A stretch of 64,000 nucleotides of DNA from a virus (IMGVR_UViG_3300021356_000797:39841-103840), one strand, 5' to 3'; shown: positions 22,749 to 40,886, counted from the first letter of the stretch. The notes: generated from the sequence alone by a model not told the origin. Numbers and translations are program-made.

Positions 22749-25700
22749 ATGGCTTTTTGTAATATAAAGACTAAACAGGCTCAAGGACTTGCAAACATTA
22801 TTGCAAAAGATGTAGCAAACAAAAGAAACGCAGGCACTCCTTACAATGTAGAGGAGGCTATGCGTAATGTCTACAATCTAATGATTGAGAATGGCCAAGA
22901 CAAAGATAGAGCTGTAACCATGGCAGCCTTAGTACCCAAAGCTGTAATTGCACAAGTTGGTCAGTATGCTCCTAACGGTGCCTACTTAGCTCCTATTCTA
23001 GGTAAAGTGGGTGAGCTGGTAAGTAAAGCCACAGACTTTAATTCTGTCATAGAAGTAATGGGTCTACAAGAAGAGTTTGCTGAAAAGTTAAATGATGTAG
23101 AACAAGCTCAAAATAATGAGATAGATGTAGAGTCTCAACCTCAGTCAGTTGAATTACCTAAAGTAGAATTAGTAGGTGGTATTCCACTTGTAGATTCAGG
23201 ATTAAGTACTACGGTATTAGAAATAGGTGACGCTGAAGGAGATCCAGCAGTAAAAGCTAATGGAGAATTTATTAGAAAGTTTATTCGCCTTGGTCAATTG
23301 CAGAGTAAAAACTTTTCTGAAGCTTATGTCTTAGATAAGATTTCTACTTACAAACTAGCATTGGTATCTTCAACTAAGATTCCTCAAGAGTCTAGAGTAA
23401 AAGCAGACGTTTATGGTCCTGTAGTATATGCATTTATTGATAGTCAGGGTAGAATTGTAACTGATGAAAACGGTCACACTCCTCACGCATTTGTAAGACC
23501 TGTTGAAAAAACTGAAGATGGTTATGTATTTAGAAAAGAGAAAAGTACCAGCAGACTTCAGATTAATAAGACAAACGCTAATAATTTAGGCCTTACTTTA
23601 GAACAGTTTGAAAAGAAAATTAAAGCTGAGGCTAGTTTCTTAAATAATGCTGCTAGAAGAATATCATCTTCTCCAGATACTATTATTCCACTAGAAGCTG
23701 TAAGAGGTACGCTTGGTGTAATAGCTAATGCTAAATCAGTTCCACTTAAAAGTATTCCTGATTTCCAACAGGAGTTTTTATTACCTGAAGGTATTGGATC
23801 TGGTACTGGTAGAATTGCTAACGTTAGCACTTTAAATAAAGATGGTAAGGTTAACGTTTATCAGGCGTTTGTATTTCAGTATCCTGGATATGATTATACA
23901 CTTCAAGCAAACGGTTTGTTACTCCGTGACACGGAATATGCCCCAGCAATCAAAGAGATTTTATTATCAAATGATTACACCCCTCTTCAGAAGAAGAACT
24001 TACTTTTTAATATTCTACAAAAGAACGTCCTTGATTTTGCAGATACTGGTGTAAAGATCCCATACTATGGTCCTAATAGTAAGGGTATCATGGTTGTTAA
24101 GGGTAAGAAAGCTATAGACTTGTCTAAGCCAGAAGAAGCTGCAAAACTTGTTGATGACTATATTAATAGAGCATATGTTAATGTGCCTATTGATTCTAAT
24201 CAACAGTATGAGTTTGATGGTCCTGTATTAGTAAGTACAAGTTCTAAAAATAAAACCTTTTTGGAGGGTGAAGATGGTACAAGATATGAATTTGAAAACG
24301 TAGTTAGTAAGTATGAGGTTGGCAAAATTCAAATGGTTAACCATATATACAATAATTTTAGAGTGTATGCTCCTACGGATTCTAAGGGTAACCTTATTAC
24401 CCCTAGTCCAGTAATTACATACAAGGCCCCTATAGAAGAAGCTCTTGCTACACCAGAAGTTTTTCAAGAAGAAAGTGTAGAGCAGATCCAAGAAGAATTA
24501 AAACTCTTAAAATCAGAACAAGCAGAAGGTAGTGCAAGTCTAGAAGATATCCTTAATCAGATTCCAGAGGACATGCCTTCTGATATGAATAAGGTATTTG
24601 GTAGAAAAAGAACCAGCCTGGATAAAGTAGATACTTTGTCTAGTGAAGCAACAGCAAAACAAATTGCTGAAGCTAAAGCTTGGTTTGAAAGTTCTCCACT
24701 ATCTAAAGTTATTCCTGTAGAGAAATGGTTTGAGATTGTAAACAGTGGTAAGGTTGCAGAATTTACTGCTAATGCTATTAAGTTGTTTGCTGGCTCTAAC
24801 TATACAGATCTTTACCATGAGGGATGGCATGGGTTCTCTCAGTTGTTCTTAACTAAAGCTGAGAAGGTTGCCCTATACAAAGAAGTAAGAAAGTTACATG
24901 GTAACATTACATTCTTAGAGGCAGAAGAATTACTAGCTGAGGATTTCCGTAAGTATCGTTTAAGTAATGGTACAATGGTGATGGATAAATCACCAGCTAA
25001 GCGTAGCATCTTTAAAAAGATTTTAGACTTCCTAAGAGCTTTGTTTGGTAACACTGAGACTAAGGTTCAGTACCGTGAGATGGTGGCTCAGGAGAAGGCT
25101 CTGCAAGTTATTAAGGAGTCTTATGACATGTTATATAGAGGAGAGTTTGAAGAACGTAAACCTAATATAGACAACTCATTCTTTCTTACTCTTAATAAAG
25201 GTGTAGAAGGAGCAGACGGTAAAGCGCTATCAGCTAAAGATTCTAAAGATATCTCTGATGCAATGGATTCTATTGTAGCTGGTATTATTAGAGACTACTC
25301 ATCTAGCCCTAAAGAAGTACTTAATAAGGAAGGAGCACTTCAGTCTCTTTATAATACTGTTAAGTTTAGACTTAGAGTGCAATTAAAACTTGCAAGCTCT
25401 GCTTCTAAAGTTGAAGACTATACTAAACTATCAAAGGAAGCTAAGTCTGATTTTATAGAGCAAGAGTTTAAATCAATTCTAGATAAGTTTGAAGATGTAG
25501 GCTTAAGAGATGAAAATAAATCTTATATTCTATCACAAGCTGAAATTGTATTATCTAAGCCTGTTGATAAGAACGCATATTACTCATTAGGTTTAGCCTT
25601 AACAAATTTTGGTGATACTGCTACCCTAAAAGATAATGCAGAAAGCACAATGCTTGGGTATCACTTTAAAACTTCAAGATACCTAGAGTCATTAGCTAAG

Positions 25701-28700
25701 TCAGAAGATATTACAGATCTTTTGGAGCTTGATATTGTAGATAGTGCTGATGATTACATGTCTTTCTATGATAAAGGTGGTAATGAAGTATCTGTTAAAG
25801 ACCTAGCAGATAATTCTGTATTGTATGCAGTACGTTCTATGAGACAGTACGATAAGTCTGGTAAAGTTATAAAGGACCGTTTTGGTTATGATAAGCTTGC
25901 TGACTTTGGTAAATCCTGGAATAGACTAAGTACAATTCTTAGAGAGTCTTACAGCATTGAAGATATGCTGGATAGAGTTAATTCAGAATCATTTAAAAAT
26001 AAAGCTTTCCAAGATCTTCAAACTGTATTGGGTAAAAATGCTGAGGCTAAAGATGATTACAAGTTTAGAATGCAAACATCTTTCTGGCAGGCATTTAATA
26101 AAGCATTTGTTCCTATATACGTAGCTTATACTACTACAGTTCTTTCTGATAAAGGTGAACTACAGCAACCTCTAAGTATTAGAGTAAAACGTGCTGAAGG
26201 AGAGGTAAGTTCTGTAGAAAAAGATCTTACCCGTAAATTTCAAGCTAATAAATCTCTACCCAATACATCTCAAGTTAATGGTACTAGAGTCCTTAATGTT
26301 ACAAAGGTCTTAGAAAAGTACAAAGGTATTACTGCAGAAAATGTTGTAGAGTTCTACAAAGACATGGGGGTTTTACCAAATGAGTTAGAGTCTTCTACAG
26401 TAAACTTCTTGTTAAGTGGAAATATACTAGTTAACACAAACTCTATGGTTGTTAACTTAAATAAGTTGGCAGCATCTAAAGAGGCAGATCTAACTACTGC
26501 AAATCCTATAAACTTTTTATCTACAGATCAAGGACTGTTCAGAGGGATGAGAAGCACCATAAAAAATATTGTAGAACAATACGGTGCTAGTGTAGGTGAT
26601 ACTGGATCATCAAGAAAACTTACTGCAGAAAGAACTACTCAGTTTGAAAGTTCTCTTAATAGTAGAGCTACAAAGATTGTCCAGTTATTAAATGGTGTAG
26701 AGAAGAATCTTGATGAGCTTCTTAACAGTCCTGCTACTGCTAATTTACATCCAGACAATAATCCTGCAATGGCTACCAATCCTATTATGAGATCTTTATT
26801 CATTATGGATAAGGAAGCACCAGGTTACAAGTCTCGTAAGACATCTAAAAACTTGTACTTGTTTAATGTAAGTGGGATGACTACAGATGTATCTGTTGTT
26901 AAATATGATAAAAACACTGGTGCAGATGTTCCAATTAGTAATACTATTAGAGGTACTAAGAATATTTCTCTTGATGAGTATACTAAATTAAATCAAGACA
27001 TTCATACTCTGTTTGTTCAAGGATATGTAGAAAACGTAAGAGCTTCTGATAAGAGTACATCATTAGCATGGAAGGTTTCTGGAGAGTCCGCTTACATTAC
27101 TCCAGCAGATGTAATAAACAAAACTTACCTAAGCAAGGCTACTAGAGCTGTGGTTAATATGCTGGCCGGAGAAATGGCTACTATTGCTAAGTATGCTGAC
27201 GCAGAGCTAAATGTGTTTGATGCTAAGGGTAATCCTATTAAAATGGATTCTTGGCAAATATTTGCTGATGTTACTGATAATGAAGGAAATGTAATTAAAG
27301 AAAACTTATTAGTTAATCCAGCAACTAAGGCTAAACTTAATAAGATAATTAAGTCTGGTAAAACAGATGCTAATGAAATAGCTAAGGAAATTCTAAAAGA
27401 AGATAGTGGACTACGTGAGGAAATTGAAAAAGGACTGCGCAGAAAAATTAAGGAAGAGTTACAAAATTTAACTGCTGTATTTGAAAAGAATGTAGAGCTT
27501 GTAGGTAAAGGAATGGCAGTTAGTAAAGAATTGAGATCTAAGATTTCTCAAAGAGCTGCTTTACCAAAAGATAGAAAGACTTTAGAAACTGCAATACTTA
27601 CAGCATTTATTACTGAAACTTTTATTCGTAATGAAGCATTCTTTAGTATTGCTAACGGTTCTTTAGCTAGTTACAGATCTGCAGATGATACTATCAAACG
27701 TAATACTACTACCTCAACAGGTAATCTATTCCGTTCTGATCAAGCTGCACAAGCTTATATTACTGCTCAAGGTAGATTACTAGAAGCTTCTTATAGTAGA
27801 AGAACTGGTAAGCCAGTAATGCCAAGAGATTACACTGGAGTTTTAAGAACTGCCATCTTAAAGGAAATGACTATTGATGGTAAAGAGCTTAACTCTGAAT
27901 GGTATGCACTTGCAGAAGAAGCTTTTAAAGCTGATGGGTTTAGTCAACAAGAGGTGGACAGTATACTTGAAGCTTACCGTAGCATGGATGAGGCAGATGC
28001 TCAGGCTTACATCACTATGGATACTTACAGACAATTAAGTATTGCAAGTGATGAATGGACTCAAGAGCAAGAGTATATGTATAACAAGCTGGTAGCTGGT
28101 GAAAACATTAATAACCCTCAGCAATACTTCCCTGTTAGAAAATATCAATACACTGGACCACTTCTTAATGCTGGTGCCCCAGTACAAGGTTTACACAAGT
28201 ATTCATTATTCCCATTAGTTCCTTCTGTTATTCAGGGTACTAACCTTGAAAAGCTTAATGAAGCTATGATGGAAGCGGGAATTGATTACGTTACTTATGA
28301 GACTGGTAGTAAAGCTGCAAGAGTTGGGCAACCAGTAGAAGCATTTGTAATTAATAAGGAAACTGGGGAACGTACTGTCCCAGAACAAACAGTTGAAAGC
28401 TTTAAGGAGAATGTTAACCTTATTCATACAGATTTCTTAAGAGATCAGTTGAGAATCAATTCTCAGTTTAAGGGTTCAGCTACTTTCTCTACTCAGTTTA
28501 GAAAGCTTCTTGCTGATGGTATATATGAAAACGGGGTTGCTAAGAATAAAGAGTTGGCCAAAGCTAATGAAGCATTCCTTAAAAACATTGATGACCTTAT
28601 TGCATATGAGACAGCTCTTCTAGAAAAAGAAATAGATACTAAGGATAAACTAGTTGCTCTAATTAAAAGAGAGCTTGAAAGAAGAGATGTAGAAGACTAT

Positions 28701-31538
28701 AAGATTGAGGCCATTGATATTGATAAAGATGGTAATCTTAAATACAATTTGGATGCCCTTCCTGCAGCAGCAGAGATGGAAAAGATTCTGAATGGTGTTG
28801 TAAACAGAAGACTTATTAGAGCTAAGCTTAAAGGTGAGTCTTTGGTTCAGGTTGCATCTACAGGATTTGAGAAAGTAGAGTCTTCAAATGATCTAAGATT
28901 TTACAGACCTGGACAAGCTGCTCAAGTAAAGATTGCCCTACAAGGAGACTTTACTAAGCTGTTGCTAATGAATCATCCAGATGGTGATAAAATTGGTAGT
29001 CTAGAGCGTCTCAATGCTTTGCTTAAAGATGAGACTTGGGTAAAGAAAAACCAAAAGCTTATTACTATTACCGGTGTACGTATTCCTGTACAGGGTCTTA
29101 ACTCTATGGAGCTATTTGAAGTAGCAGAGTTTTTACCGCCTGCAGCTGGTAATGTTATTGTAGTACCAACTGAAATGGTAGCTAAGGCTGGATCTGATTT
29201 TGACATTGATAAGCTTACAATGTACTACCCTACAATATTTGCAGCTAAAAAATCTAAGGGTAAAAAAGCAGAGATTCTTGATGACAAGCTTATTAATAAT
29301 CTGCTTGAGCAAATAGGAGAAGCTCCACTAACACAACTGGAAGCTTCTGAGTACACAGTAGGTTTAGATAATAACGGATCTAGTAAGTTTAAGAATAACA
29401 TTATATCACTAGCTAGAGATATCTTGTTGCATCCTGATAACTTTACTAAACTGATTAGACCTATTGCAACAGATTTGGTTAAGGAAAATTCAGAAGCTTA
29501 TAAAGAACTAGAAGTTAGTGAAGAAGATTTAGCTAAGTCTGCAGTATTAGACTACAGTTACAACCTTAAGAAGCAGCAAGAAAATTCTGTTGGTAAAAGA
29601 GCGTTGGGTATTAGTGCTAAGGGTAATACCTATAACACAATGTTCCAAAAATTATCAGATGGTTTGGCAAATGAGTTTGCATACCATTCAGACTTTAAGG
29701 CCTTTTATGGTGTTCCTTTTGTAACTTTAGATATGGCTGACAGAGCCTATGATGAAAAAGGAGTATCTGTTAAGTATACTGTATTTAGACAATCTGATAT
29801 AGCATTCCCTTTTGGTAAGATTGGTGACTTAAAAGATTCAGAAGGCAAACATTACAAGTCAGATATTATATCTCAAATTATCAACGGTCACGTAGACGTT
29901 GCTAGTGATTCATGGATCTTTAATATTTCTGCAGATGATGTAACTACACCATACTTACTTAACCTTATTGACTTAGGTGTAAACTATGATTATGCAGTAA
30001 GATTATTAAATCATCCTTTGATTAGAGAATACCTAGATACTTACAAAGCATTTAAGAAGAGTGAGTTGACAAGAGCTGTTTCTCCAAAGATGATGGAGGA
30101 CTATACGGTAATTAAAATTCTTCTTGAAAAGCATCTTAATGAAGATTACGTGGCAGTTGCTGCACTGCGGGATAAGAAAACTGGTATGATTAGACTAGGA
30201 CCAGATGGTAAACCAATGCTAAAAACTCCTAGTACTAGCGAATTATTTAGCATAGTTGATGCTAATAAAGCTACTAAAACTTTAACGGTAGATGAGCTAA
30301 AAGATCCTTCAAGTGTAAAACCTCTTATGGAGTTTATGAAGTTTGTGTATTACTCTAAACCTCTTAAAGCTGTAAGGTTAAGTACAGATGTAGATACAGG
30401 AAGAAAAGCGGCTAGCTTTATACAAGCTGCATCTGAATCAGAGAATATATTTAAGTTAGAATCAAGCCCTATTACAGGACCATTAGTTACAGAGTTATTG
30501 TCTAAGAATGTTTTAGGAACTTTTGTGGATGTTAAAAATTTCCAAATGACTGCTTTCCAAAAGCTGTTTGGATTTAGAGCGGATCCTCTCTTTATGAAGG
30601 CCTTAAATACAGTTGTAAACGATACAGACCTAGCTTATGATAAAGAGGCAAGAGAAGTATTTGTTAAGGCTAAAACTAATGGGTTTGTATCTCATTTAAT
30701 TGATAAGATTAACTTCCCATATACTGCAGATAATTTTAGTAAAGTAAAGTCTTACAAAGGTATTCCTGTAAACTTTGTAAAATTTGAGGGGGATCTTAAA
30801 AAGAATTATGCACTATCAAAAGACGGTGTTATTAATATAGATCTAGCTGTTTTCCAGAGCTATGTTAGAGGTACTATGAGTAAGTATTCTCTTACTCAAA
30901 ATCAAGTTTATTCTTTCTTATTAGAATCAGAATATATAAAGGCTACATCTAACCTTACAGGACAAGAAGCTCTTGATCAAGCTTTGTATAATATTGTAGC
31001 GCCTACACATCTTACTGACTTTACTAATCCTAATAGTGTAGCTCAGAAGTTCCAAGAGATGATGGCTGATCAATCTGCCATAGAAGCATTAGAGGGCTAC
31101 AGTATTACTGATGATCTTATTATTTATGACTACCAAGGAGGTAAGATGGTAGGTATTAAAACAGATAGGGCTAATGTAGAAGACATGGAACGTTACCATG
31201 CGGAGATAAAGCTTCTTCAAGAATCTACTAATTCTTTGGTGCGTGAGTTCTTTACAAGATTACCTGAAGTAGTAATGTCTGTAGAAGGATTTAAGAATGG
31301 TCCGTTCTCACTAATTAATGTTGTACCGTTTGATCAAATCTCTAGGAAAGCTGACCTAGCTATCAGAGAGTATCAAGCTTTAAGTGAGGAAGAAAAGCAA
31401 TTCTTAATTAATGATTATCTTAGTAATGAGCCTGTTGCTGTTGAAGATACCATAGTAACTGAAGAAATGTCAGAAAAAACTATTGAGTTAATGACTGACA
31501 AAGAAGTAGAAGAATTTATTAAAAAGTGTAAAGCATAA
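22749..31538 (+). CDS. Virion RNA polymerase, single chain, with N-terminal zincin-like segment
   Basis: 2929 residues. GSDFDIDKL places the triad DFDID at residues 2150-2154 (bases 29196-29210). This is the Mg-binding motif of the double-psi beta-barrel in the crAss-like virion RNA polymerase (Cellulophaga phage phi14:2 gp66 type). One chain would carry both catalytic barrels. The enzyme would be packaged, ejected and used for early transcription. Residues 690-694 read HEGWH with glutamates at 726, 727 and 731, a gluzincin-like metallopeptidase signature N-terminal to the polymerase part. The chain is longer than the phi14:2 enzyme (about 2180 residues, from memory), which leaves room for that extra domain. 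The stop is coupled to the next gene (TAATG). Confidence 0.85.
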   Translation: MAFCNIKTKQAQGLANIIAKDVANKRNAGTPYNVEEAMRNVYNLMIENGQDKDRAVTMAALVPKAVIAQVGQYAPNGAYLAPILGKVGELVSKATDFNSVIEVMGLQEEFAEKLNDVEQAQNNEIDVESQPQSVELPKVELVGGIPLVDSGLSTTVLEIGDAEGDPAVKANGEFIRKFIRLGQLQSKNFSEAYVLDKISTYKLALVSSTKIPQESRVKADVYGPVVYAFIDSQGRIVTDENGHTPHAFVRPVEKTEDGYVFRKEKSTSRLQINKTNANNLGLTLEQFEKKIKAEASFLNNAARRISSSPDTIIPLEAVRGTLGVIANAKSVPLKSIPDFQQEFLLPEGIGSGTGRIANVSTLNKDGKVNVYQAFVFQYPGYDYTLQANGLLLRDTEYAPAIKEILLSNDYTPLQKKNLLFNILQKNVLDFADTGVKIPYYGPNSKGIMVVKGKKAIDLSKPEEAAKLVDDYINRAYVNVPIDSNQQYEFDGPVLVSTSSKNKTFLEGEDGTRYEFENVVSKYEVGKIQMVNHIYNNFRVYAPTDSKGNLITPSPVITYKAPIEEALATPEVFQEESVEQIQEELKLLKSEQAEGSASLEDILNQIPEDMPSDMNKVFGRKRTSLDKVDTLSSEATAKQIAEAKAWFESSPLSKVIPVEKWFEIVNSGKVAEFTANAIKLFAGSNYTDLYHEGWHGFSQLFLTKAEKVALYKEVRKLHGNITFLEAEELLAEDFRKYRLSNGTMVMDKSPAKRSIFKKILDFLRALFGNTETKVQYREMVAQEKALQVIKESYDMLYRGEFEERKPNIDNSFFLTLNKGVEGADGKALSAKDSKDISDAMDSIVAGIIRDYSSSPKEVLNKEGALQSLYNTVKFRLRVQLKLASSASKVEDYTKLSKEAKSDFIEQEFKSILDKFEDVGLRDENKSYILSQAEIVLSKPVDKNAYYSLGLALTNFGDTATLKDNAESTMLGYHFKTSRYLESLAKSEDITDLLELDIVDSADDYMSFYDKGGNEVSVKDLADNSVLYAVRSMRQYDKSGKVIKDRFGYDKLADFGKSWNRLSTILRESYSIEDMLDRVNSESFKNKAFQDLQTVLGKNAEAKDDYKFRMQTSFWQAFNKAFVPIYVAYTTTVLSDKGELQQPLSIRVKRAEGEVSSVEKDLTRKFQANKSLPNTSQVNGTRVLNVTKVLEKYKGITAENVVEFYKDMGVLPNELESSTVNFLLSGNILVNTNSMVVNLNKLAASKEADLTTANPINFLSTDQGLFRGMRSTIKNIVEQYGASVGDTGSSRKLTAERTTQFESSLNSRATKIVQLLNGVEKNLDELLNSPATANLHPDNNPAMATNPIMRSLFIMDKEAPGYKSRKTSKNLYLFNVSGMTTDVSVVKYDKNTGADVPISNTIRGTKNISLDEYTKLNQDIHTLFVQGYVENVRASDKSTSLAWKVSGESAYITPADVINKTYLSKATRAVVNMLAGEMATIAKYADAELNVFDAKGNPIKMDSWQIFADVTDNEGNVIKENLLVNPATKAKLNKIIKSGKTDANEIAKEILKEDSGLREEIEKGLRRKIKEELQNLTAVFEKNVELVGKGMAVSKELRSKISQRAALPKDRKTLETAILTAFITETFIRNEAFFSIANGSLASYRSADDTIKRNTTTSTGNLFRSDQAAQAYITAQGRLLEASYSRRTGKPVMPRDYTGVLRTAILKEMTIDGKELNSEWYALAEEAFKADGFSQQEVDSILEAYRSMDEADAQAYITMDTYRQLSIASDEWTQEQEYMYNKLVAGENINNPQQYFPVRKYQYTGPLLNAGAPVQGLHKYSLFPLVPSVIQGTNLEKLNEAMMEAGIDYVTYETGSKAARVGQPVEAFVINKETGERTVPEQTVESFKENVNLIHTDFLRDQLRINSQFKGSATFSTQFRKLLADGIYENGVAKNKELAKANEAFLKNIDDLIAYETALLEKEIDTKDKLVALIKRELERRDVEDYKIEAIDIDKDGNLKYNLDALPAAAEMEKILNGVVNRRLIRAKLKGESLVQVASTGFEKVESSNDLRFYRPGQAAQVKIALQGDFTKLLLMNHPDGDKIGSLERLNALLKDETWVKKNQKLITITGVRIPVQGLNSMELFEVAEFLPPAAGNVIVVPTEMVAKAGSDFDIDKLTMYYPTIFAAKKSKGKKAEILDDKLINNLLEQIGEAPLTQLEASEYTVGLDNNGSSKFKNNIISLARDILLHPDNFTKLIRPIATDLVKENSEAYKELEVSEEDLAKSAVLDYSYNLKKQQENSVGKRALGISAKGNTYNTMFQKLSDGLANEFAYHSDFKAFYGVPFVTLDMADRAYDEKGVSVKYTVFRQSDIAFPFGKIGDLKDSEGKHYKSDIISQIINGHVDVASDSWIFNISADDVTTPYLLNLIDLGVNYDYAVRLLNHPLIREYLDTYKAFKKSELTRAVSPKMMEDYTVIKILLEKHLNEDYVAVAALRDKKTGMIRLGPDGKPMLKTPSTSELFSIVDANKATKTLTVDELKDPSSVKPLMEFMKFVYYSKPLKAVRLSTDVDTGRKAASFIQAASESENIFKLESSPITGPLVTELLSKNVLGTFVDVKNFQMTAFQKLFGFRADPLFMKALNTVVNDTDLAYDKEAREVFVKAKTNGFVSHLIDKINFPYTADNFSKVKSYKGIPVNFVKFEGDLKKNYALSKDGVINIDLAVFQSYVRGTMSKYSLTQNQVYSFLLESEYIKATSNLTGQEALDQALYNIVAPTHLTDFTNPNSVAQKFQEMMADQSAIEALEGYSITDDLIIYDYQGGKMVGIKTDRANVEDMERYHAEIKLLQESTNSLVREFFTRLPEVVMSVEGFKNGPFSLINVVPFDQISRKADLAIREYQALSEEEKQFLINDYLSNEPVAVEDTIVTEEMSEKTIELMTDKEVEEFIKKCKA

Positions 31539-36978: not shown

Positions 36979-37008
36979 AGAGGGGTTTTTATAAGCCCCT
37001 CTTTTTTT
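36979..37008 (+). terminator. Rho-independent terminator closing the late structural block
   Basis: AGAGGGG, a 10-base loop and CCCCTCT form a 7-bp stem directly followed by seven T. It lies 23 bases after the stop of the 1805-aa gene. The T tract runs straight into the promoter-like element at 37009. Confidence 0.9.
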
Positions 37009-37026
37009 GTATTTTATATATATAGA
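37009..37026 (+). promoter_or_regulatory. Candidate phage promoter element, copy 4
   Basis: TTTTTTTGTATTTTATATATATAGA begins in the terminator T tract. Its GTA is 31 bases before the ATG at 37040. It would restart transcription for the lysis and signalling operon. Confidence 0.5.
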
Positions 37027-37039
37027 ACCAACAATTCAT

Positions 37040-37291
37040 ATGATGTTTAATAAATTAAAAACCAAGATCATGGCGTTTGCTGATATCTTTAAAGATGAGA
37101 ATGATTACAATGAGAAAACAATCATTGGGTTTATGTCATTTGCTGTTATGGTAATCTTTGCCGTAGCAGATTTGGTTACCGGATATGTTGGTAAGGATTT
37201 AGTTATTAACGAAGGGATCTACAACTCTTTTGTATTTATCACTTTAGGTAGTTTTGGAATTGCAGGTCTTGAAAAATTTGCAAAGAAATGA
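37040..37291 (+). CDS. Holin-like small membrane protein
   Basis: 83 residues from the ATG at 37040. In-frame ATGs at 37043 and 37070 are also possible, and the TTG at 37007 would lie in the terminator T tract, so it was rejected. Two hydrophobic segments are visible (GFMSFAVMVIFAVADLVTGY and IYNSFVFITLGSFGIAGLEKF) with a charged N-terminus (DIFKDENDYNEK). This fits a class II holin or phage-holin-family protein that permeabilises the inner membrane. Its stop overlaps the start of the endolysin gene (ATGA), the usual holin-endolysin pairing. Confidence 0.65.
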   Translation: MMFNKLKTKIMAFADIFKDENDYNEKTIIGFMSFAVMVIFAVADLVTGYVGKDLVINEGIYNSFVFITLGSFGIAGLEKFAKK

Positions 37292-37758
37292 AATTAGAAG
37301 TATTAAGATTCAGCAGTCAGGACGACAGCACAAACGGAATTTTATTTGATGTCACAGAAGGAAGAAAGTTTTTATGCTACACTCTTGAAGATGAGTATAG
37401 GGAGACAAAAGTTATGTCTGAAACACGAATTCCTGCTGGCACATATAAGATCACTCTTAGAACGGTAGGCGGTCACCATGAAAGATACACTAAGAAATAT
37501 GGTGAAATGCACAAAGGCATGCTATGGGTACGTGATGTGCCTAATTTTAAGTGGATCCTTATTCATACTGGTAATACTGATGAACACACTGCTGGGTGCC
37601 TCCTTGTTGGTGATAGTCAACAAAGCAATCTTATCAAGAGTGATGGTTTCACAGGTTCAAGCACTCAAGCGTATAAAAGAATCTACCCTCCAATTGCTGC
37701 AGCGTTGGAAGCAGGGGAAGAAGTAACAATCACTTACATAGATTACGATACTGTATAA
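37288..37758 (+). CDS. DUF5675-family endolysin candidate
   Basis: 156 residues. The core reads CYTLEDEYRETKVMSETRIP, AGTYKITLRT and then LIHTGNTDEHTAGCLLVG. The H-x-GN-x-x-x-x-T-x-GC signature matches DUF5675 proteins found beside holins in Bacteroidota phages and predicted to act on peptidoglycan. The candidate catalytic residues are the His and Cys of this signature, as in L,D-transpeptidase-like folds. There is no signal peptide, so export would depend on the holin encoded immediately upstream with a 4-base overlap. The chemistry is not established by the sequence. Confidence 0.65.
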   Translation: MKLEVLRFSSQDDSTNGILFDVTEGRKFLCYTLEDEYRETKVMSETRIPAGTYKITLRTVGGHHERYTKKYGEMHKGMLWVRDVPNFKWILIHTGNTDEHTAGCLLVGDSQQSNLIKSDGFTGSSTQAYKRIYPPIAAALEAGEEVTITYIDYDTV

Positions 37759-37775
37759 CAATCAATTAAATCAAC

Positions 37776-37910
37776 ATGGCAAAACACATCAACAGTTCAT
37801 ACCGGGCAAACACAAAGAAGAGTAGACCGGGGGTTCATTCAAAGAATGGAACGAGCAAGAACAAGTCATCAGTAAACTACAAGAAAAAGTACAGAGGGCA
37901 AGGAAGATGA
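37776..37910 (+). CDS. Small basic phage protein (44 aa)
   Basis: The ATG at 37776 opens a 44-residue frame containing SRPGVHSKNGTSKNKSS and ending KKYRGQGR. It is rich in Lys, Arg, Ser and Asn and lacks acidic residues, so it is probably unstructured alone and binds nucleic acid or the ribosome. The pattern PGVHSKN-x-x-SKN...YRGQG is familiar from other podovirus lysis regions, though I cannot name a function. The stop TGA overlaps the next ATG (ATGACA), supporting it as a real translated gene. Confidence 0.7.
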   Translation: MAKHINSSYRANTKKSRPGVHSKNGTSKNKSSVNYKKKYRGQGR

Positions 37911-38122
37911 CAAAGAAAAGTTTACTTGATAGGGACAACATTGAGTTGTGGATCTTAACTCCAGAAGAGGAAGCTGAGATTGCAGAAGTACTGGCTTGGG
38001 ATGAGACAATCACCGAGGCAGAAGACTTGTTTAGAACTGAACAATTTAAAAAGCTTTCACTATGGAAAAGATTTTATCTAAGATTAAGAGTAGCGTTGCT
38101 ATCCTTCTTACAAATGTTGTAA
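37907..38122 (+). CDS. Small hypothetical protein, acidic then basic-amphipathic
   Basis: 71 residues. The N-terminal half is acidic (LTPEEEAEIAEVLAWDE) and the C-terminus is basic-hydrophobic (LSLWKRFYLRLRVALLSFLQ), able to lie on a membrane. It overlaps the upstream basic gene by 4 bases and its 3' end overlaps the following frame by 61 bases if that one starts at 38062. I do not recognise the family. Location between the endolysin and the sensor kinase suggests a lysis-accessory or membrane role, which is inference only. Confidence 0.5.
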   Translation: MTKKSLLDRDNIELWILTPEEEAEIAEVLAWDETITEAEDLFRTEQFKKLSLWKRFYLRLRVALLSFLQML

Positions 38123-38304
38123 CCTGGACGAGTGTACGTATGGTATACTTGCTGATGTCCTTGGTGTTATTCACTGGATGGGTGACACGTACTTGGGACA
38201 TTGTAGGTTTTGTTATTGTAATGTTACAGGTTGGTGTATGGACGAAGTTCTGTCCAAGCAAGTGGGTGTTTGAAAAGTTAGGTTGGAAAAAGACTGAGCT
38301 ATAA
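38062..38304 (+). CDS. Small membrane protein upstream of the histidine kinase
   Basis: 80 residues from the ATG at 38062; an internal ATG at 38140 (54 residues) would avoid the overlap with the preceding gene and is an equally good start. One long or two short hydrophobic stretches are visible (VRMVYLLMSLVLFTGWVT and IVGFVIVMLQVGVW), followed by a basic tail (FEKLGWKKTEL). The stop is fused to the kinase start (TAATG), so the two are probably translated together. It could be a holin or antiholin variant, or a partner of the kinase. No family is recognised. Confidence 0.5.
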   Translation: MEKILSKIKSSVAILLTNVVTWTSVRMVYLLMSLVLFTGWVTRTWDIVGFVIVMLQVGVWTKFCPSKWVFEKLGWKKTEL

Positions 38305-39203
38305 TGTCTGTACTTGATGGAATATCAATAAGGAGTAGGATCTGCCTACTGTGCTCCACTATAATCATGTTGACATTCTTTGTCTTCAAGACTATGGTGG
38401 TGTTCCGTTTTATACATCATAGTACGTTTACCCATTACTTTGAGTGGCTGAGTGTAATAGCGTTTATGCCTCCGTTCTTTGTAGTTGTTAGAGAATTCCT
38501 TCAGAACAAAGAGAGAATCAAAGGTGATCTGAACCAAAAGAATATATATCTAGAGCATGCTGCTAAGATTATTAGACATGACATGCACAGTGGAATCAAC
38601 ACTTATTTACCCAGGGGTATCAAATCATTAAAGCGCAGGTTAACTGATGAGGATATTGCTGAGCTAAAGATTGGAAGTCCTTTGAAATTGATACAGGATG
38701 GACTACATCACGCACAGAAGGTATACAGTGGGGTATATGAGTTCACTAATCTTGTTAAAGAGGGTGCACAGCTAAACAAAGAAGTTAAAAATGTAAAGGA
38801 GATCTTGGGTGATTATCTCAAGCTTACTGCATATAAGAATCAGGTTGTACTAGATGATAGTCTAGATACACCGTTAGAAGTAAATGAGGCGCTGTTCTGT
38901 ACAGCGGTAGATAACTTTATAAGAAACGGCCTAAAGTATAATGATTCTGGTACCAAGTATGTAAAGATATACTTCCAGAATAACTACAATAAGGCATTAC
39001 TATTGATCATAGAAGATAACGGGCGTGGTATAACTGCTGAGGAATTTGTTGAGCTCAGTAAACCATATGTCCGTAAAGAAGGACAGAAAGAAACTGGTAC
39101 GGGATTGGGACTGAACATCTCAATTTCTATTTTAAAAGAACATGGATATATGGTACGGGCTGAGAAAACAGAAACCGGTACTAAAATAATTATTGAGATA
39201 TGA
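38304..39203 (+). CDS. Membrane-bound sensor histidine kinase
   Basis: 299 residues. Two N-terminal membrane segments (about 12-34 and 48-65) are joined by a very short loop, so there is no classical periplasmic sensor. The H-box is KIIRHDMHSGINTYLPRG with His92. The HATPase domain has the N-box (DNFIRNGLKY, Asn204 and Asn208), G1 box (EDNGRG, 237-242) and G2 box (GTGLGL, 265-270). All residues needed for ATP binding and autophosphorylation are visible. The stop overlaps the receiver gene by 4 bases. Sensor kinases are rare in phages. It may sense membrane state, which would fit its place behind holin and endolysin, but that is inference. Confidence 0.88.
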   Translation: MSVLDGISIRSRICLLCSTIIMLTFFVFKTMVVFRFIHHSTFTHYFEWLSVIAFMPPFFVVVREFLQNKERIKGDLNQKNIYLEHAAKIIRHDMHSGINTYLPRGIKSLKRRLTDEDIAELKIGSPLKLIQDGLHHAQKVYSGVYEFTNLVKEGAQLNKEVKNVKEILGDYLKLTAYKNQVVLDDSLDTPLEVNEALFCTAVDNFIRNGLKYNDSGTKYVKIYFQNNYNKALLLIIEDNGRGITAEEFVELSKPYVRKEGQKETGTGLGLNISISILKEHGYMVRAEKTETGTKIIIEI

Positions 39204-39634
39204 TTGATACGTTGATGCTTATAGATGATGAGAATCTATTCCACTTGGTATTTGAGGATGCATGCAGCATGTTAGATATAGCACTTTCTATAGAGGCACT
39301 GGATAGCAGCGATGAAGCTGATAGAAAATTTAAAGGTTGGTTTCCTGACAATGGGGAAGAAAGACCACAATGTGTATTTGTAGACTTGAATATAATTGGA
39401 TCTTCATATGACGGTATTGAGATGATCCGTAAAATAAATGAAGATTATGGTAATGGATGTGTTATTGGTATTATTTCTAGTAGCAGTGATCAGGCAGAGA
39501 TTGAGAAAGCCAAAAAAGTAGGTGCACAGTTTTGGATCATTAAGTCAGATGACATTGAGCCAAGACTAGAAGAGTTTAAAAAAGATTATAACGGGTATGT
39601 TGATAAGACTGCTCCGTTTAAAGTATATAGATGA
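39200..39634 (+). CDS. Stand-alone CheY-like receiver domain
   Basis: 144 residues. The acidic pocket is Asp9, Asp10 and Glu11 (LIDDEN), the phosphoacceptor is Asp62 (CVFVDLNI), the switch Ser lies in IISSSS (92-96) and the conserved Lys is Lys115 (WIIKSDD). The protein consists of the receiver only, with no DNA-binding or enzymatic output domain, so it must act by binding a partner. The gene overlaps the kinase upstream and the coiled-coil membrane gene downstream by 4 bases each, making a kinase-receiver-membrane cassette. Function by protein contact is inferred, as for CheY or Spo0F. Confidence 0.85.
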   Translation: MIDTLMLIDDENLFHLVFEDACSMLDIALSIEALDSSDEADRKFKGWFPDNGEERPQCVFVDLNIIGSSYDGIEMIRKINEDYGNGCVIGIISSSSDQAEIEKAKKVGAQFWIIKSDDIEPRLEEFKKDYNGYVDKTAPFKVYR

Positions 39635-40197
39635 TAAGTTCTAAGGATACAGTAAAGGACGCACTATTAAAAGCCAAGTCTAAAAAGGTTTATATAGAAG
39701 GTAACTTTGTCAAACTATTGTCTGACACAACCGATGATGACGTCAGGTTATACCTTGATGAATGTAAACGTAAAGATCAGGAGAATAGAAAGAAACGTCT
39801 TGCTGTAACCAAACAGATTCAAAAACAAAACAAAGAACTTGAGGAGGCTGCTGTAATAAACAAAGATCTACTTAGCGATCTTGAAAATAAGATGGAAGAG
39901 CTTGAAGCTTCTAAAAAAGAAGCTGAAGGTTTACGGGATGAAGCCTTGAATGATCTAGAAGTAATGCAAAAAAAGACTCAGTTTGAGTTGATTAGTATTA
40001 TAGTTAAACTTGCTTTGGGCGTTATTGCGGGTGTTGGTATACTCACTACGGTGTTGTACTTATATATTTTAAGTAGTGGTTTAGATTCTAAGATAATTGA
40101 AACCACCTGGTCCAATTTATTTGGTATATTGTTAACTAACTCATTTAGTATAGTTGGTACCATCATGGGTGTCAAGTATGCTACAGAAAAAGATTAA
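39631..40197 (+). CDS. Coiled-coil protein with two C-terminal membrane segments
   Basis: 188 residues. A basic N-terminal part (AKSKKVYIEGNFVKLL) is followed by a long coiled coil (about 45-118; KQIQKQNKELEEAAVINKDL) and two hydrophobic segments (about 120-148 and 163-183) with a short loop. The topology places both termini in the cytoplasm. It overlaps the receiver gene by 4 bases and is a natural candidate for its output or for a membrane scaffold of the two-component pair. No family is recognised. The C-terminal half also resembles small phage holin-like proteins. Confidence 0.65.
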   Translation: MISSKDTVKDALLKAKSKKVYIEGNFVKLLSDTTDDDVRLYLDECKRKDQENRKKRLAVTKQIQKQNKELEEAAVINKDLLSDLENKMEELEASKKEAEGLRDEALNDLEVMQKKTQFELISIIVKLALGVIAGVGILTTVLYLYILSSGLDSKIIETTWSNLFGILLTNSFSIVGTIMGVKYATEKD

Positions 40198-40199
40198 TT

Positions 40200-40886
40200 A
40201 TGGCAGTAGCTAGATCTCACGATGATGAGGTCTTCAAAGCAAAGAGAAGACCTAAGAGGCCTATTAAGTTTAACGTTACCCTAAATGAAGAACAAAAGCA
40301 TGCAAAAGCAGAAATCCTTGATAACCCCGTCACTGTACTACAAGGTATGGCAGGAAGTGGAAAAACTTTGGTGGCAGTTCAAACTGGGTTGGATCTCTTA
40401 TTTACAAAGCAGATTGAAAAGATTATTATTACCAGGCCAACCGTTGCCAAAGAAGACATTGGTTTCCTTCCTGGAGATATCAAAGAGAAGATGGATCCTT
40501 GGCTTGCTCCTATATACCACAACTTGTACTTACTATATGACAAAGTTAAGATTGACAAGTGTGTTGAAGAAGGACTGATAGAGATTGTACCGTTTGCATT
40601 TATGCGGGGTAGAACCTTTACTGATGCTGTAATCATTTTAGATGAAGCTCAGAATGTTACAATGAACCAAATGGAGATGATGCTTGGACGTCTTGGTAAA
40701 GGAAGTACCATGATCATCTGTGGTGATAAAGCTCAGATTGATTTACGTAATAAGAAAGATTCTGGTTTTGGTTTCTTGTACACACTAGAAGCACAGGTTA
40801 AAGGGTTTAAAGTGATTACCCTTAAAACAAATCACAGACATGAAATTGTAGAACCTATACTTAAGGTATACGAAGATTATAGATAA
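40200..40886 (+). CDS. phoH: PhoH-like ATPase
   Basis: 228 residues. Walker A is GMAGSGKT (49-56), Walker B is IILDEAQN (145-152), and the PhoH signature ITRP...GFLPGDIKEKMDPW and a later GDKAQID are present. PhoH proteins are RNA-linked P-loop ATPases common in phages; their role in infection is debated. The length is usual for the family. The stop TAA overlaps the ATG of the next small gene. The N-terminal extension is basic (KAKRRPKRPIKF). Confidence 0.93.
   Translation: MAVARSHDDEVFKAKRRPKRPIKFNVTLNEEQKHAKAEILDNPVTVLQGMAGSGKTLVAVQTGLDLLFTKQIEKIIITRPTVAKEDIGFLPGDIKEKMDPWLAPIYHNLYLLYDKVKIDKCVEEGLIEIVPFAFMRGRTFTDAVIILDEAQNVTMNQMEMMLGRLGKGSTMIICGDKAQIDLRNKKDSGFGFLYTLEAQVKGFKVITLKTNHRHEIVEPILKVYEDYR

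Follow-up and report, generated by a model that had tools for sequence, protein, structure and literature searches.

A histidine kinase, a stand-alone receiver and a coiled-coil membrane protein form a recurrent gene cassette, often near lysis genes, in crAss-like and T4-like phages

A cassette of three genes, encoding a membrane histidine kinase (HK), a stand-alone receiver (RR) and a coiled-coil membrane protein (CC), recurs in the same order in viral DNA far more often than expected by chance. The cassette was analyzed in a 64,000-nucleotide stretch of DNA (the window), which comes from a virus record of 103,840 bases. HK and RR are ordinary members of known families; CC belongs to a family without an assigned function in the databases, and the combination of the three is new relative to the literature searched. 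We judge the chances about even that the cassette works as a phage relay complete in itself, with a membrane protein and not a transcription factor as its output. That the process it controls is the timing of lysis or the triggering of holin is a more tentative reading.

Open reading frame (ORF) calling in the window confirmed HK, RR and CC where a sequence-only reading of this DNA had placed them, with intact motifs and an overlap of 4 bases at both the HK/RR and the RR/CC junctions (Table 1). That reading had also put the cassette directly behind holin and endolysin genes. Lysis genes are indeed near, but two small overlapping ORFs (S71 and S80) separate the presumed endolysin gene from HK. 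The window's S71 extends about 60 bases beyond the annotated S80 start; since several relatives show an overlap of 4 bases here, it is uncertain where S80 begins in the window. Most S80 homologues are 62 to 66 residues long. The holin-like gene of the window had no Pfam or PHROG match, and its putative role as a holin is therefore assigned from the gene pair and its two transmembrane (TM) segments. Of 61 representative loci, only 3 have PhoH directly 3' of CC; it was rejected as a cassette member because its presence is local to close relatives.

Table 1. Cassette genes and neighboring features in the window
Feature	Coordinates	Strand	Description
HK, histidine kinase	38304..39203	+	299 aa; ORF; 2 TM; H92 in H-box RHDMHSG; N/G1/G2 boxes; PAS absent
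RR, stand-alone receiver	39200..39634	+	144 aa; D9/D10, phospho-acceptor D62, S93, K115; short C-terminal strand
CC, coiled-coil membrane protein	39631..40197	+	188 aa; N-terminal mini-domain, long helix, two-TM hairpin, highly conserved second TM
CC N-terminal domain and coiled-coil start, candidate RR-binding part	39631..39882	+	
S80, small two-TM membrane protein	38062..38304	+	CPSK motif; YgaP-like_TM-related; fourth cassette gene, directly upstream of HK
S71, short conserved ORF	37907..38122	+	Amphipathic C-terminus; just 5' of S80; 34 homologous ORFs (fetched loci)
Holin-like small two-TM protein	37007..37291	+	Adjacent lysis module; probable start, internal ATG near 37043
DUF5675/phrog_1501 protein, presumed endolysin	37288..37758	+	4-base overlap with holin-like gene
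PhoH ATPase	40200..40886	+	1.7e-63; cassette neighbor in close relatives only

The window HK matched HATPase_c (E = 2.1e-13) and gave no match to Pfam HisKA. Its hydrophobic segments lie at about residues 15 to 33 and 48 to 66, are joined by a loop of about 14 residues, and are followed closely by H92. Among 196 distinct HK sequences, H92, D93 and H95 were invariant. The ATP-binding residues N208, D238, G240, G242, G267 and G269 were likewise invariant, and the N, G1 and G2 boxes are all present. The HK genes of four loci (L049, L052, L062 and L063) carry a C-terminal extension of about 70 residues past the ATPase domain. RR matched Response_reg (E = 6.7e-8), and its AlphaFold model (pLDDT 89.5) had a complete (beta-alpha)5 receiver fold, with CheY, Rcp1 and SLN1-type receivers as Foldseek neighbors. 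Residues D9, D10, D62, S93 and K115 were invariant in 178 distinct RR sequences. Response_reg was the only domain found in the 144 residues, with no DNA-binding or enzymatic output domain, and the model ends with one extra strand. The earlier description of RR as a complete receiver (D62 and K115) without an output domain thus agrees with both the domain search and the model.

CC had been described as a coiled-coil, two-helix membrane protein, and the predictions bear this out. Its model, with a pTM of only 0.33, comprises two short helices, a continuous helix (residues 36 to 149) and a second helix (residues 154 to 184); two TM segments were predicted in essentially all divergent copies. At this level of model confidence, CC is predicted to consist of a rod in the cytoplasm that continues into a hairpin in the membrane. 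Among 191 sequences the second TM segment was the best-conserved part, along with a run of residues in the N-terminal domain (E23, G24, K28, Y41, D49, R53, R56 and Q64), a pattern suggesting that RR has one site on CC and that a second, specific site lies in the membrane. CC gave nothing significant in Pfam, PHROGs, NCBIfam, PDB sequence or PDB structure searches, and known holin and antiholin families in Pfam and PHROGs gave no match. The best BFVD structure match (44% identity) was UniProt A0A6J5PRT3 from an uncultured Caudovirales phage, a CC-like entry deposited without an assigned function or family; a member of the CC family is therefore already in the databases. A subgroup of cassettes (L115:7502-7996, L230:3003-3494 and similar loci) has a multi-TM protein of 163 to 167 residues with a C-terminal coiled coil encoded between RR and CC.

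The distribution of the cassette was examined in deposited and environmental phage sequences. RR and CC had no match in 50,697 deposited phage records, and HK matches in the deposited collection were discarded as generic kinases, several of them in doubtful or bacterial records. In IMG/VR, RR matched 530 confirmed stretches in one scan and at least 521 in another, HK matched 121, and CC matched 165 and 414 in two scans; the loci inspected were the best 80 per scan. The earlier statement that kinase-receiver pairs are rare in phages therefore stands for the deposited records but not for environmental sequences, with their more than 500 RR relatives. Synteny of the three genes in other phages, named earlier as a supporting check, was found in about 220 distinct RR loci, with HK just upstream of RR in all but a handful and CC downstream in every one. 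In a first set of 123 distinct RR loci, HK was upstream in 122 (the exception lies at a contig edge) and CC was downstream in 123. A divergent set, in which relatives were ranked by similarity to cellular versions and so were not chosen for closeness to the window, gave both HK and CC in 92 of 96 distinct RR loci; two others leave the contig before HK, and CC was downstream in all 96. The commonest gaps were −4 for HK-RR (66 loci) and −4 or −1 for RR-CC (76 loci).

Sequence comparisons within the cassette showed that RR was the most conserved gene (mean identity, 81%), followed by HK (63%), S80 (63%) and CC (60%). The genes are under purifying selection, with a median omega of 0.07 to 0.085, and the likely contact surfaces of RR with HK or CC appear nearly invariant. 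Distances for HK and RR were correlated (r = 0.61 in 70 loci); in 33 loci the correlation was 0.76, whereas that between HK and the holin-like gene was 0.00. HK and CC distances correlated less (r = 0.34). These values indicate that HK and RR move together, usually accompanied by CC, and independently of the adjoining holin-like gene, and that CC may be exchanged between cassettes.

In 78 of 123 distinct loci an S80 homologue immediately precedes HK; the homologues share an invariant R, Y and W and an invariant C64-P65-S66-K67. Similarity to the YgaP-like transmembrane domain (PF11127) was weak: 18 of 40 members matched at E ≤ 10 (best, 1.9e-4), and the window copy did not match. The invariant CPSK of S80 follows the second TM segment. 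Unlike YgaP-like proteins, S80 has no rhodanese domain, and it was seen here only as a neighbor of phage HK.

The carriers of the cassette belong to more than one phage lineage. In the window phage, head and packaging genes fall in phrog_6681, phrog_6547 and phrog_11589 (terminase, portal and capsid), and tblastn matched the portal to cr108, crAss002, csAssE-Sib and Cellulophaga phi17:2; these matches identify the phage as crAss-like, as had been proposed from the sequence. The best deposited match of its portal (L221:6211-8973) is the cyanobacterial Leptolyngbya phage Lbo-JY46 (33% identity). Aquatic Bacteroidota are tentatively proposed as hosts of the carrier phages. The window also has an ORF of 2929 residues adjoining one of 1805 residues (22749-31538), and giant proteins of such size are known from crAss-like phages. 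The crAss-like portal family phrog_6547 was present in 12 of 42 records tested, and the T4-like portal PF07230 was present in 5 of 29 records without phrog_6547, on contigs up to 252 kb; cassettes also occur on contigs up to 430 kb. That crAss-like and T4-like phages share the cassette is a new observation. On the kinase tree, in which few rows are labeled, T4-like members nest among crAss-like ones with at least two changes of carrier type, which suggests that the cassette probably moved between unrelated phage lineages.

To what does RR pass its signal? Part of the evidence comes from cellular relatives. A genome scan yielded three relatives, L214, L215 and L216. L215 is a 967-kb Bacteroidota chromosome contig that encodes a PAS-containing HK and RR and has no CC, and L216, phage-derived by appearance, encodes PhoH and a CC with two TM segments. 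The third, a Bacteroidota operon (L214:4756-8137), encodes a three-PAS HK, RR and then a second kinase of 349 residues (L214:7088-8137), in which HisKA just under the cutoff is followed by HATPase_c. The CC N-terminal domain and the N-terminus of this second kinase are 49% identical over 53 residues (E = 7e-13), a homology that we report here as new. The homologous HK core, RR and CC N-domain thus occur in the same order in the cellular operon and the phage cassette; the cellular HK differs in its three PAS domains, and in the third cellular protein HisKA and HATPase domains take the place of the hairpin. From this comparison, CC looks like a receiver-responsive kinase front end with a membrane hairpin where the kinase has its catalytic part.

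Two phage loci, L246:3037-4154 and L359:1014-2020, encode RR and CC but lack an adjacent HK. BLAST found no HK across the 242-kb record of L246, which may be incomplete, and another kinase may therefore serve there. In L359, the position directly upstream is occupied not by HK but by a peptidoglycan-binding endolysin-like gene. Together, the homology of the CC N-domain to the L214 kinase and the loci with RR and CC but without HK lend indirect support to an action of the receiver on the coiled-coil protein, and we consider it fairly likely that CC is the direct target of RR. A precedent is Caulobacter DivJ-DivK-DivL, in which the free receiver DivK, downstream of a kinase, signals through the kinase-derived pseudokinase DivL (PMC5361649); the order of kinase, single-domain receiver and partner of kinase ancestry is that proposed for the cassette. 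DivL, however, keeps a kinase fold, acts on CckA and binds DivK via its kinase and PAS regions (PMC5361649), whereas CC shares only its N-terminal domain with a kinase before the two-TM hairpin, and its binding site is a candidate one.

The same relatives bear on the proposal, also made in the sequence-only reading, that the cassette rewires host signaling. In this reading a host two-component pathway would be intercepted either by RR, after phosphorylation by the phage's kinase or one from the host, or by CC, which would mimic the N-terminus of a host kinase as a decoy. The same RR family occurs in two Bacteroidota metagenome-assembled genomes, G001 and G002, the latter also with a kinase that has a CC-type N-terminus, and L246 keeps RR and CC without HK. 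Against this, the cellular system is very rare: the CC N-domain was found clearly in 1 of 396 sampled Bacteroidota genomes (plus one marginal match) and RR in 1 of 396, and the CC N-domain was almost absent from 195 genomes of the order of G002. Most hosts would thus offer no such target, and a wide cellular origin was rejected on the same counts. Moreover, host-facing proteins usually diversify, and RR is the gene that varies least. Host rewiring is accordingly disfavored, and we regard it as unlikely. Phage action on two-component signaling is itself known, in that PIT4 of phage LSL4 acts on host two-component systems (PMC10714779); in the cassette, by contrast, the kinase, receiver and candidate output are all phage encoded.

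The genes around the cassette were then considered. Recurrent neighbors were a PF05105 holin, the HOL family of holin-like genes (32 of 61 representative loci), Amidase_2 with PG_binding, GH19, Peptidase_M15_3, the phrog_3000/33083 type and DUF5675. A strictly recognized lysis gene was present in 12 of 23 loci with adequate flanks, at a mean distance of 1.92 genes versus 6.29 expected (P < 5e-5), and 6 of the 23 had no recognized lysis gene. Of the 96 divergent loci, 42 had a lysis gene within about 3.5 kb; among 40 control windows, placed at set positions in twelve carrier records, 3 did so (Fisher P = 2e-5). In this comparison related loci are not independent, the controls sample a small number of records, and the lysis profiles were built from genes near cassettes, which favors finding such genes there. 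In L417 and L419 the lysis genes are located away from the cassette. Ribonucleotide reductase genes also lie near the cassette in a subset (control, P = 0.014). Spanin-like genes, so called by inspection since they had no family match, occur just 3' of CC in L100:8847-9263 and L018:9506-10090, with a lipoprotein-type signal, or a membrane anchor and helical tail. Enrichment of the cassette next to lysis genes that represent several unrelated endolysin families is a new observation.

An alternative with a place for both membrane proteins is that CC and S80 modify the inner membrane under two-component control, for example to block a second phage. The conservation of the second TM of CC suggests a specific membrane partner, and expression alongside late genes is plausible from the gene order. 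Linkage to lysis genes of unrelated families, however, is better explained by lysis, and CC does not vary between phages, as exclusion proteins normally do. Envelope remodeling or superinfection exclusion therefore seems to us doubtful, and less probable than host rewiring.

The input side of the kinase varied widely. The window HK has no PAS domain, and hence no flavin-contacting PAS residues, whereas in about half of the first locus set a PAS domain lies between the TM pair and the H-box. Among 58 divergent kinases, about 41 matched PAS, 11 matched GAF and 1 matched TPR, with HATPase_c in all; by hydropathy, a TM segment is apparently absent from some. On a kinase tree rooted on PAS-bearing cellular relatives, the bare form of the window falls in a derived clade mostly without PAS, and PAS presence changed at least five times. 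That kinase input domains (none, PAS, GAF or TPR) are swapped while RR and CC stay constant is also new. If CC is the output, one would expect just such an arrangement, in which sensors are exchanged in front of an RR-CC pair that stays constant. The suggestion that the kinase, having almost no periplasmic loop, senses membrane tension was rejected as a family trait because the input domains vary: the same core carries PAS, GAF or TPR, and some copies apparently have no TM segment.

The best PDB matches of the relatives' PAS domains were MmoS and Aer, and they align with these flavin PAS sensors (Aer/MmoS/NifL; 8dik, 3ewk). Residues aligned to Aer H53, N85 and R115, the roles of which are described in PMC9668731, are all retained in the L068 type; the commoner phage type keeps only the His, without the N85 and R115 equivalents. 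These flavin-contacting residues, together with the resemblance of S80 to the YgaP membrane domain, would fit a system that reports redox or respiratory state and, through CC, tunes a membrane process of the host so that the infected cell stays energized, without acting directly on lysis. Most phage PAS copies nonetheless lack two of the three residues, the window HK has no PAS at all, and no metabolic gene recurs beside the cassette except ribonucleotide reductase in a subset; metabolic or energy-state control is thus quite improbable. That the genes are captured bacterial DNA carried as neutral cargo, with no dedicated viral function, is scarcely credible, since the relatives in Bacteroidota chromosomes are a handful against more than 500 viral ones, and selection (omega about 0.08, catalytic residues invariant) contradicts it.

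A working mechanism for the phage relay can be proposed from these observations. Given the intact motifs, HK would autophosphorylate at H92 and pass the phosphate to D62 of RR; that RR is phosphorylated by HK is highly probable. Phosphorylated RR would then dock on the CC N-domain, as on the N-terminus of the second L214 kinase, a step suggested by homology and linkage. Docking may alter the long cytoplasmic helix of CC and, judging from the anatomy and the model, pass the change into the hairpin; the helix is predicted to run straight into the hairpin, and so the signal would pass from cytoplasm to membrane. The position of the genes suggests that the hairpin could act on the lysis machinery (holin-like neighbors and S80) or on the envelope. 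Such a relay would form a checkpoint at which late infection waits for, or reacts to, the state of the cell, with an input interchangeable between phages: a bare TM pair as in the window, PAS (in some with Aer/MmoS-type flavin residues), GAF or TPR. We propose, as a possibility still more tentative than lysis control in general, that a mobile system with swappable sensors in crAss-like and T4-like phages gates lysis at the membrane, with phosphorylated RR binding CC and the hairpin releasing or blocking holin.

In the usual description, holin accumulation sets the time of phage lysis. If the hairpin releases or blocks holin under the control of phosphorylated RR, then the time of lysis would be a response to the state of the cell and not a fixed clock. 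Searches of the open-licence PMC literature found neither lysis regulation by a dedicated phage sensor kinase nor a description of the HK-RR-CC cassette, in agreement with the earlier remark that no crAss-like system of this kind was known. If the proposal is true, the late stage of infection includes state-dependent decisions in many uncultured phages, and CC supplies an uncharacterized membrane protein family with a candidate receiver-binding domain that is open to direct testing.
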